Positions 28,924 to 31,083 of a stretch of 64,000 nt of DNA are shown piece after piece. Source of the stretch: Microcella alkalica (GTDB lineage: Bacteria; Actinomycetota; Actinomycetes; Actinomycetales; Microbacteriaceae). The position numbers and the translations under genes are program-made. The stretch covers positions 248,001 to 312,000 of the forward strand of contig NZ_JABUKC010000003.1 in assembly GCF_014595885.1 (NCBI RefSeq). Reading direction: 5' to 3'. Under the pieces are notes generated by a model. That model ran no database searches. It saw only the letters and a list, made by a program, of their open reading frames with translations, and was not told the origin of the DNA. Each line of letters begins with the position of its first letter. Position 1 is the stretch's first letter.

Positions 28924-29337
28924 CTACAGCGCGGTGACGCGCACCTGCGCCTTGCCGAGCACGGTCTGCCCGTCGACGCTCACGGTGAGGTCGATGCGCC
29001 CGCCGGTCTCGTCGACCGCGCCGACCGTCGCGACGACGGTCACCGTGGCGCCGTCAACGGGATCGACGACGATGGGGCGCGTGAACCGCACCTGGTAGTC
29101 GCTGACCCAGCCGCGGGCATCCAGCCAGTCGACGACCGGCTGCACGGCGAAACCCATCGTGAGCATGCCGTGGGCGAGCACGCCCGGCAGACCGACCGAC
29201 GCGGCGACGTCATCGCGATAGTGGATGGGGTTGAAGTCGCCGCTCGCACCGGCGTAGCGCACGAGGGTGTCGCGGCTGATCGCGTAGGTGCGCTCGGCGA
29301 CGACCTGGCCGACCTCGAGCTCGAGTGCACCGCTCAT
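28924..29337 (-). CDS. MaoC-like dehydratase subunit, HadB type
   Basis: A 137-aa hot-dog-fold protein. The hydratase site is intact: D34 and H39 in ASGDFNPIHY, followed by GVLAHGMLT. In actinobacteria such a subunit pairs with a HadA-like partner to dehydrate 3-hydroxyacyl-ACP. The partner gene lies directly upstream with a 4-bp overlap. In an organism without mycolic acids the pair probably serves ordinary fatty acid elongation. Confidence 0.85.
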   Translation of the reverse strand: MSGALELEVGQVVAERTYAISRDTLVRYAGASGDFNPIHYRDDVAASVGLPGVLAHGMLTMGFAVQPVVDWLDARGWVSDYQVRFTRPIVVDPVDGATVTVVATVGAVDETGGRIDLTVSVDGQTVLGKAQVRVTAL

Positions 29338-29783
29338 GCGTCCTCCCCCCGCACGACGAGGGTCGAGACGCTCGTGACGACGTGCGCGCCGTCGGCGTCG
29401 ACCATGCTCGTCTCGCTGGTAATCATGCTGTTGCCGCCGAGCGTCTTGATGCTCGTCACGCGCAGCGTCGCCGTGAGCTCGTCGCCCGCGACGATCGGGC
29501 GCGAGTAGCTGAAGCGCTGGTCGCCGTGCACGACGCGGCTGAAGTCGATGCCCGCATCGGGCTCGGCGAGCAGCTGCTGCAGCGTGGCCTCGGCGACGAC
29601 GATCGGGAAGGTCGGCGGCGCCACGACGTCGGCGAAGCCGGCGGCGCGCGCGGCCTCCGGGTCGTGGTGCAGAGCGGCCGTGGCGAGCACGGCGCGCGCG
29701 AACTCGCGCACCTTCTCGCGCCCCACCAGATAGGGCGCGACGGGCGCGAACGCGCGCTCGGTAAGAGCGGGGTTCACGGGCAC
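29334..29783 (-). CDS. MaoC-like dehydratase subunit, HadA type (MaoC N-terminal family)
   Basis: A 149-aa hot-dog-fold partner of the HadB-type subunit. It carries DVVAPPTFPIVVAEATLQQLL and RVVHGDQRFSYSRPI typical of the substrate-binding half and lacks the D-x-x-x-x-H catalytic motif. The obligate partner just downstream supplies that site. The ATG at 29783 has no long leader, and the stop overlaps the next start. Confidence 0.85.
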   Translation of the reverse strand: MPVNPALTERAFAPVAPYLVGREKVREFARAVLATAALHHDPEAARAAGFADVVAPPTFPIVVAEATLQQLLAEPDAGIDFSRVVHGDQRFSYSRPIVAGDELTATLRVTSIKTLGGNSMITSETSMVDADGAHVVTSVSTLVVRGEDA

Positions 29784-29803: not shown

Positions 29804-30688
29804 TCAGTACAGCGTCTCGCCGAGCAGTCGGTCGAGCATCTCGCGCCCCTGCGCGGCGAAGGCCGCGTCGTCGTGCTCGAGCGCCCAGGCGATCGTGGCG
29901 ACCGCCTGCACGGCGTGGAAGCAGTGCAGGACCGCCTCGTCGCGCGCGTCGGGGCGGCGGCCGTAGCCGTCGAGGAACACCTCGCGCAGCAGCGGGGCGT
30001 CGAGCCACTCGCGCTGCTCGAGGCGGAACAGGTCGACCGCCCACGGCTCGAACTCGACGGCGGCGAAGTCGATGAGGCGCACGTGCTCGTCGGGGCCGAG
30101 CATCCAGTTGCGCGGGGAGTTGTCGCGATGGGCCGGCACCAGCGGCAGCGGCCCGAGGTCGAGCGAGCCAGCCGCGATGCGCTCGGCGATGTCGAGCTCG
30201 GCCTCGGTCACGGCGTCACCGACCCGGTCTGCCCAGTACGCGAACTTCGCCATCAGGGTGTCGCCGAAGTGGTCGTTGACGACGGCCGGCGTCGAATCGT
30301 GCAGGCGCCGCAGCACCTCGCCCGCGCGACGATGCACGGCCGGGTCGTGGGCCGCCTCCGTGCCGTCGACGACCTCACCGGGCACGCGCGAGACGATCAG
30401 CAGCTGCAGCCGATCGTCGCTCGCGACCAAGCGCGGGGCGTCGCCGCCGAGCGCGGGCACGTACCGCTGGTACGCCTCGAGCTCGCGGTGGTAGTTGCGG
30501 CCGCCGCGGTGCCACTTCACGATCGCGTGCTCGTCGCCGCGCGTGCGCACCTCGACCACGCGGGCCTCGCCGTGCGGCCACGACCGGTCGATAACGACCT
30601 CGACGGGCCCGAGCACGCGGGTGACGCGGTCGAGCGCCTCCGCGTCGGAGGCGAGCTCGGCGACGGCGCTGTCGGGGATGCGGTACAC
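29804..30688 (-). CDS. Aminoglycoside phosphotransferase-fold kinase (substrate unknown)
   Basis: A 294-aa APH/choline-kinase-fold protein. The catalytic loop is PAHRDNSPRNWML (Asp base and the Asn ligand present) and the metal motif is LIDFA, where Ala replaces the usual Glu or Gly. The nucleotide-binding Lys lies in HAIVKWHRGG. Such kinases phosphorylate small molecules, sugars or antibiotics, and a resistance role is not implied. It is 20 bp upstream of the HadA-type gene. The terminator after the 27-aa peptide gene separates it from that unit. Confidence 0.75.
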   Translation of the reverse strand: MYRIPDSAVAELASDAEALDRVTRVLGPVEVVIDRSWPHGEARVVEVRTRGDEHAIVKWHRGGRNYHRELEAYQRYVPALGGDAPRLVASDDRLQLLIVSRVPGEVVDGTEAAHDPAVHRRAGEVLRRLHDSTPAVVNDHFGDTLMAKFAYWADRVGDAVTEAELDIAERIAAGSLDLGPLPLVPAHRDNSPRNWMLGPDEHVRLIDFAAVEFEPWAVDLFRLEQREWLDAPLLREVFLDGYGRRPDARDEAVLHCFHAVQAVATIAWALEHDDAAFAAQGREMLDRLLGETLY

Positions 30689-30753: not shown

Positions 30754-30760
30754 GAACGGA

Positions 30761-30797
30761 CGAAGCCCCGGTCGCCGTGTGGCGCCCCGGGGCTTCG
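30761..30797 (-). terminator. Terminator of the 27-aa peptide gene
   Basis: A perfect 11-bp stem CGAAGCCCCGG/CCGGGGCTTCG with a 15-nt loop starts 19 bp after the peptide stop on the minus strand. It ends a transcript of about 180 nt. Confidence 0.7.
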
Positions 30798-30816
30798 TGA
30801 AGTCACTGACCGATGA

Positions 30817-30900
30817 CTACTGGCAGCTCTCGCACTGCAGCAGGTCCATCGGGTCGACGGGCACCGCGTAGCCGCCGACGGTCTCGTTGTCGTTGTCCAT
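30817..30900 (-). CDS. Unrecognised 27-aa peptide ending in Cys-Glu-Ser-Cys-Gln
   Basis: A very short gene, too small for routine gene calling. ATG at 30900 follows a consensus AGGAGG by seven bases. The 27 residues fall in two parts: an acidic head MDNDNETVGG and a tail YAVPVDPMDLLQ-CESCQ. The C-x-x-C at the very end could bind zinc or a cluster, form a disulfide, or be modified. Gly-Gly before the tail recalls peptide-leader cleavage sites, which is speculation. No maturation enzyme is evident nearby. The case for expression is strong: a near-consensus promoter overlapped by a palindrome lies 51 bp upstream and a terminator directly downstream. I do not know the family. Confidence 0.72.
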   Translation of the reverse strand: MDNDNETVGGYAVPVDPMDLLQCESCQ

Positions 30901-30950
30901 GTGCGGACCTCCTGTCGAATCTGTGGCCGGCTTCCCGCCGGTGGAGCATC

Positions 30951-30984
30951 ACTATATAACGGGAATGACAGGGATGTCATTCCC
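30951..30984 (-). promoter_or_regulatory. Promoter and palindromic operator of the 27-aa peptide gene
   Basis: On the minus strand ATGACA (30975-30980) and TATAGT (30951-30956) are separated by 18 bp, five of six matches in each box, which is rare in this G+C-rich sequence. GGGAATGACA and its exact complement TGTCATTCCC (30961-30984, 4-bp spacer) cover the -35 box and spacer. A bound repressor would block polymerase. The cognate regulator is unknown. Confidence 0.7.
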
Positions 30985-31083
30985 CCAGATCTAGTGTTTC
31001 GGCGTGTCGCGCCCTTTTCTCGCGGATGCTCGGCGCGCGCCGCGCACGGGCCCCACCGAGCCCGCCCCGCGTAGCCTGGGCTC

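Follow-up and report, generated by a model that had tools for sequence, protein, structure and literature searches.

A 27-residue peptide gene of Microcella alkalica as a probable free-standing tail of class I ribonucleotide reductase

What is the product of a gene of only 27 codons that carries a promoter, a ribosome-binding site and a terminator-like hairpin of its own? The question is raised by a locus on the minus strand of the window, i.e. the whole stretch of 64,000 nucleotides of the Microcella alkalica genome analysed here, for which the original prediction, made from the sequence alone, had described a complete transcription unit around a Cys-x-x-Cys peptide of no recognised family. 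We consider it very probable that the product is a free peptide, acting in trans, which corresponds to the redox-active C-terminal tail of a class I ribonucleotide reductase (RNR).

The peptide gene and its relatives

The gene (30817..30900, minus strand) reads from ATG to TAG, and its 27 codons plus stop (30900-30817) encode MDNDNETVGGYAVPVDPMDLLQCESCQ; its assignment as a stand-alone RNR tail peptide gene is based on the frame itself, on conservation in the family and on homology to fused NrdA C-termini. This is the 28-codon frame ending CESCQ that had been predicted, and the AGGAGG ribosome-binding site is likewise where it was expected, 7 nt 5' of the ATG (30908..30913, minus). An AGG-containing motif of at least 3 bases precedes all 30 best relatives of the stand-alone gene. 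The promoter proposed earlier, near consensus, is formed by the -35 hexamer ATGACA (30975..30980, minus, from the promoter scan) and the -10 hexamer TATAGT (30951..30956, minus, from the sequence and the promoter scan), 18 bp apart, and it is the sole promoter-like site in 3 kb (mean in shuffles 0.1). A hairpin 3' of the stop (about 30760..30798, minus) is a probable terminator, judging from the sequence and from the stems of relatives: the predicted stem is there, with a perfect length of 12 bp in place of the proposed 11 bp, it has no T-run and it is unlisted by the consensus terminator scan. Stems of 7-17 bp follow the peptide stop in 30/30 best relatives, while base-shuffled controls mostly gave 5-7 bp.

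Of the 30 stand-alone loci, 20, among them that of the window, have a FAS1-like/MaoC dehydratase gene (29334-29783 in the window) near the peptide gene, which indicates that the stand-alone gene occupies an old locus. The other neighbour, 29804-30688, was guessed to be aminoglycoside-phosphotransferase-like, a guess that is unsupported, with no Pfam match. The peptide itself has no match in Pfam or NCBIfam, and 13 peptide members compared with known families gave chance-level matches only.

Relatives of the peptide are nevertheless widespread in the family. Of 199 family genomes searched by tblastn, 98 gave a match at E<=1, and in 93 of these it reached E<=1e-5; the five genomes with matches at E 0.07-0.95 were scored as peptide-absent. 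In an independent named collection 346 encoding stretches were found, and the best 80 of these 346 belong to Microbacteriaceae or to metagenome bins filed nearby, the nearest among them being Microcella and relatives. The tail follows the consensus Y-x-VP-x-DPMD-x-L-x-C-[DE]-S-C-Q and the separate peptide has about 22-30 residues, so both cysteines and the PVDPMD core are conserved in relatives, as had been expected. Pooled over 27 of 30 stand-alone genes (three were left out for length or indels), pS is 0.351 and pN 0.065 (pN/pS 0.18), and third codon positions take 2428 of the 3356 pairwise differences. The homologue search and the alignment checks proposed with the original prediction therefore gave family matches, a conserved frame and purifying selection, and its view that the peptide itself is the product holds.

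All 30 best peptide matches are dispersed, with nrdA and nrdB missing from those loci. In one family genome (G041) the peptide was matched six times, and four of these matches fall in two contig ends (L044 and L045) from which nrdA, nrdB and the box pair described below are all missing; the copies at these two ends are probably mobile elements.

An NrdA without its tail

The original prediction did not recognise a family, which is where it failed: the peptide and the C-terminal end of NrdA are homologous. For profiles of 13 peptides and of 10 fused NrdA ends, hhalign gave a probability of 97.4, an E value of 1.1e-11 and 57% identity. Fused forms are found in other Actinomycetes, whose NrdA homologues, 67-76% identical, carry the tail at their end. 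Among 21 such NrdA loci, 18 (70.6-75.7% identity) have ends of the type ...ACPVDPQERLQCESCQ with a CxxCQ terminus, two of the other three being cut by a contig end and one, in G455, being tail-less. In another family of the same order all nine NrdA loci are fused, e.g. ...VGGVACPVDPMEALQCESCQ, with the pattern VGGVACPVDPMExLQCESCQ, and eight remoter NrdAs (about 40%) terminate C[AS][VIL][DE]DP[DE]CEACQ. In a sample of the order, 34 of 396 genomes match the peptide profile, 32 of them outside the family; these 32 have one match each, 30 within open frames of 869 aa or more, and with a single match per genome no extra free copy was seen beside the fused tail. The NrdA of G455, a genome from another family (loci L085 and L312), is 62% identical and ends without the cysteine pair, and the tail peptide was not found there at E<=10. 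A further RNR chain of G455 has a Cys-rich C-terminus, so its NrdA may be dispensable; we regard this NrdA as decaying or differently reduced.

The NrdA of the window's own genome has 825 aa and a cysteine-free end, ...GFGFGGVAKAGE, and a second copy of the peptide, MDPFETTTETVGGYVVPTDPMDDLHCESCQ, is sited between nrdA and nrdB. The three active-site cysteines of this NrdA align with the solved Pseudomonas NrdA. Of 52 NrdA loci in the family 51 were usable (L112 is cut), and in these there are no cysteines in the last 60 residues of NrdA (0/51), with [RK]GFG present at the C-terminus in 50/51; the chain ends behind its linker and has no terminal cysteine pair of the usual kind. The tail gene stands behind nrdA, between it and nrdB, in 48 of the 51 loci, each time as a separate frame after the nrdA stop, so that the tail is not covalently part of the large chain. 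Relative to nrdA, 39 of these 48 operon copies are in frame 2, two in frame 1 and seven in frame 0 behind the stop. Read-through of the nrdA stop into the operon copy was considered and rejected, 41 of the 48 copies being out of frame; the window's genome has its operon copy in frame with nrdA, after TAA-GCG. The remaining three genomes (G015, G053 and G123) have no operon copy, and in all three a dispersed copy lies behind the same type of box-pair promoter. A catalytic NrdA without redox cysteines and a second gene supplying them constitute a split RNR, and this separation of NrdA and tail gene is read directly from the sequences.

The peptide and this NrdA also occur together. This NrdA type (E<=1e-150) was detected in 91 of the 199 family genomes, none of which lacks the peptide, while the peptide is absent in 106 of the 108 genomes without this NrdA. 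Two genomes with peptide and no detected NrdA (G113 and G172) are both imperfect assemblies. The peptide-less family genomes have only a distant chain of about 30% identity, NrdE-like and ending CVSC[MA]L in all six read, which indicates that those enzymes carry a tail of their own. In the window's genome there is one PF02867 chain, hence one RNR of class I/II, the classes that this search covers. The split NrdAs form one clade when residues beyond 760, i.e. linker and tail, are excluded (support 99), support is 100 after removal of two long branches, and the same clade is found in a tree possibly retaining fused-tail columns; a single origin is therefore the simplest account.

Promoters of the stand-alone gene, of nrdA and of the mobile copies

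The promoter of the stand-alone gene contains two putative NrdR-type boxes, recognised by motif, by spacing and by being common to nrdA: box 1 (30982..30997, minus; core CACTAGATCTGGGG, 30996-30983) and, 33 bp from it, box 2 (30949..30964, minus; core CCCGTTATATAGTG, 30963-30950), which overlaps the -10 hexamer. Each box has 16 bp and the spacer 17 bp. All 30 stand-alone promoters have CACTAnATnTrGkG and, 33 bp on, a box that closes with the -10 TATAGT. The box pair is found before nrdA as well, in 50/50 readable loci, spaced by 32 bp (44 loci), 33 bp (5) or 31 bp (1); two further nrdA loci are cut and stand outside the 50, and the pair of the window genome's nrdA was seen separately. The spacer is 17 bp in 30/30 stand-alone and 15-17 bp in 50/50 nrdA promoters. 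None of 1500 base-shuffled upstream regions scores at least 4, as the real pairs do, on a box motif derived from these same promoters. NrdR is reported to bind paired 16-bp palindromes with spacers of 14-17 bp (PMC12051234), a published range at whose edge the 17-bp spacer lies, and another study states that it needs conserved C and G positions in the boxes (PMC9110341). Box 1 has the conserved C and G in all promoters, box 2 in 20 of 30 stand-alone (the window's included) and 42 of 50 nrdA promoters, the conserved C being missing from box 2 in the other ten and eight. NrdR is encoded in the window's genome (TIGR00244). The stand-alone gene and nrdA thus appear to share a putative paired NrdR-type operator, and the box pair was also present in 79 of 80 named chromosomal loci (the best 80 of 346).

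Between the boxes and overlapping them lies a palindrome, GGGAATGACA-TCCC-TGTCATTCCC (30961..30984, minus), read from the sequence. Its general form, AATGACA-N4-TGT[CG]ATT, occurs in all but one of the 30 stand-alone promoters, with perfect arms in 18, and in 0/50 nrdA promoters, and the -35 [AT]TGACA in 29/30 versus 1/50. Since the -35 lies inside the palindrome in stand-alone and not in nrdA promoters, a second regulator is possible; the palindrome could be its operator or could reflect constraint from the overlapping elements. The palindrome, the double operator and the second genomic copy had all been missed by the original prediction. Just 5' of box 1 (about 31009-31002 in the window) the sequence GACACGCC occurs in 23/30 stand-alone and 49/50 nrdA promoters, at nrdA behind a TGTGGA-like sequence, and is possibly a DnaA-like site or the target of a further regulator common to both promoter types.

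Alternatively, only the operon copy might serve as the actual tail, and the stand-alone gene could be a surplus one, for dosage or for particular conditions, with little effect. This would be in accordance with the operon copy in 48 of 51 loci and with some drafts (e.g. G104 and G162) that match only beside nrdA. However, purifying selection on the stand-alone copy is strong (pN/pS 0.18), the promoter type has been preserved in 30/30 cases and in 79 of the best 80 named loci, and three genomes lack an operon copy altogether; we therefore see this explanation as one to be kept in mind, with perhaps a minor share of the probability.

The gene is also carried by mobile elements. In IMG/VR 402 pattern matches were found, of which 364 were confirmed as relatives, and details were taken from 80 of these 364. 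All 80 copies are free-standing tails, and the open frames that contain them do not exceed 262 aa. No NrdA was found in their flanks, both of which measure 2.5 kb or more in only 26 of the loci, while two loci have nrdB in the flank. Two IMG/VR contigs of 117 and 121 kb (L153 and L192) have the peptide adjoining or near nrdB, with NrdA not found in the contig. None of 22 phage records searched over their full length, some of them fragments, contains NrdA, and packaging, head, tail or lysis genes adjoin the peptide copy in 4/4 phage loci examined. Isolate phages gave four distinct, individually weak matches (E 0.01-0.2), with the peptides DPMDELICEGCQ, DPMDLLQCTSCQ, DPMDEFQCDSCQ and DPADLVSCESCQ; three of these phages infect Microbacteriaceae, and the fourth, listed for a cyanobacterium, is a misfit. 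Plasmid matches came from 19 records (15 Clavibacter, 3 Leifsonia and 1 Gryllotalpicola), and one plasmid copy is annotated as RNR subunit beta. The box pair was found in none of the mobile copies examined for it, with 0/80 IMG/VR loci (of 364), 0/4 isolate phages and 0/3 plasmids.

Proposed action in trans and its meaning

The tail is cut from every family NrdA and yet kept as a gene, of which the direct reading is action in trans. In the tethered enzyme the cysteine pair of the tail is reported to act as reductant of the active-site disulfide and to be regenerated by a redoxin, thioredoxin or glutaredoxin (PMC5704485, PMC9669993). By homology we infer that the free peptide most likely re-reduces the active-site disulfide of NrdA in trans. 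A reduced CESC pair would enter the NrdA active site and reduce the disulfide left by each turnover, the oxidised peptide would leave, and thioredoxin, glutaredoxin or mycoredoxin would reduce it again, the peptide being a dissociable stand-in for a swinging tail that is otherwise tethered. Possible contacts for docking are the conserved VPxDPMD core of the peptide and the [RK]GFG with which NrdA ends. At high dATP, NrdR would repress nrdAB and the stand-alone gene together, and phage and plasmid copies, having no operator, could keep the host RNR in reducing equivalents. Of the roles originally suggested, a redox one is accordingly likely, while for a metal-binding or modified peptide there is zero support here.

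A separately controlled promoter away from nrdAB could also be expected of a regulator or inhibitor that mimics the tail and blocks the active site or titrates thioredoxin, and a mimic could indeed compete with the reductant. But NrdA is tail-less and the window's genome has no second class I/II chain, which means that a donor is needed, and phages would gain little from an inhibitor, so we judge such a role to be improbable. An unrelated metal-binding, modified, secreted or leader peptide, or a structured RNA, with only a chance resemblance to the tail, is hardly credible: the 196-nt transcript region does fold better than shuffles (z -3.05) and two cysteines could bind metal, but the profile match to NrdA ends (E 1.1e-11), the operon copies beside nrdA, the co-occurrence in 91/91 genomes and the codon-level selection oppose it, and an Rfam scan of the window returned four tRNAs only and nothing at the peptide gene.

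A free tail acting in trans would have partial counterparts among known systems. The tethered tail of NrdA/NrdE has homologous sequence ending CxxCQ and a cysteine pair with the role proposed here for the peptide (PMC5704485, PMC9669993), whereas here the tail is a separate gene with its own promoter and at least two copies per genome. In NrdJa-NrdJb of Pseudomonas aeruginosa the redox C-terminal part is also on a separate polypeptide and works by disulfide exchange, but that enzyme is class II and NrdJb a folded domain of 229 residues encoded in the same operon (PMC4520616), while here the enzyme is class I (NrdA with an NrdB partner) and the part has about 27 residues and is also dispersed and phage-borne. 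According to that 2015 paper, the split NrdJ was the only split RNR in a non-viral organism (PMC4520616). NrdH-redoxin and glutaredoxin fused to NrdB (PMC6187632) are likewise dedicated RNR reductants; these have a thioredoxin fold and reduce the tail, whereas the peptide is the tail. Phages are known to carry RNR chains in pieces, split by introns, inteins or endonuclease genes within the catalytic chains (PMC3653736), but the phages here carry the tail without a catalytic chain. A free class I RNR tail was not found in the literature searched, subscription papers being mostly outside its scope, which leaves absence unproven.

Ribonucleotide reduction is essential, and the RNR tail has been studied as a tethered arm. 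On balance we favour the view that in this family the tail is now a diffusible peptide of 22-30 residues, possibly the smallest subunit dedicated to a central metabolic enzyme, and that phages took the gene alone, in less than 100 bases and free of NrdR control, raising host dNTP. This would add a tiny, easily missed phage gene for nucleotide supply. If the enzyme works with a free tail, re-reduction could be titrated, labelled and timed apart from catalysis. A gene of 27 codons may be skipped or misnamed by annotation even though it serves an essential function, and it is probably such an annotation gap that makes family genomes appear to have a tail-less RNR.
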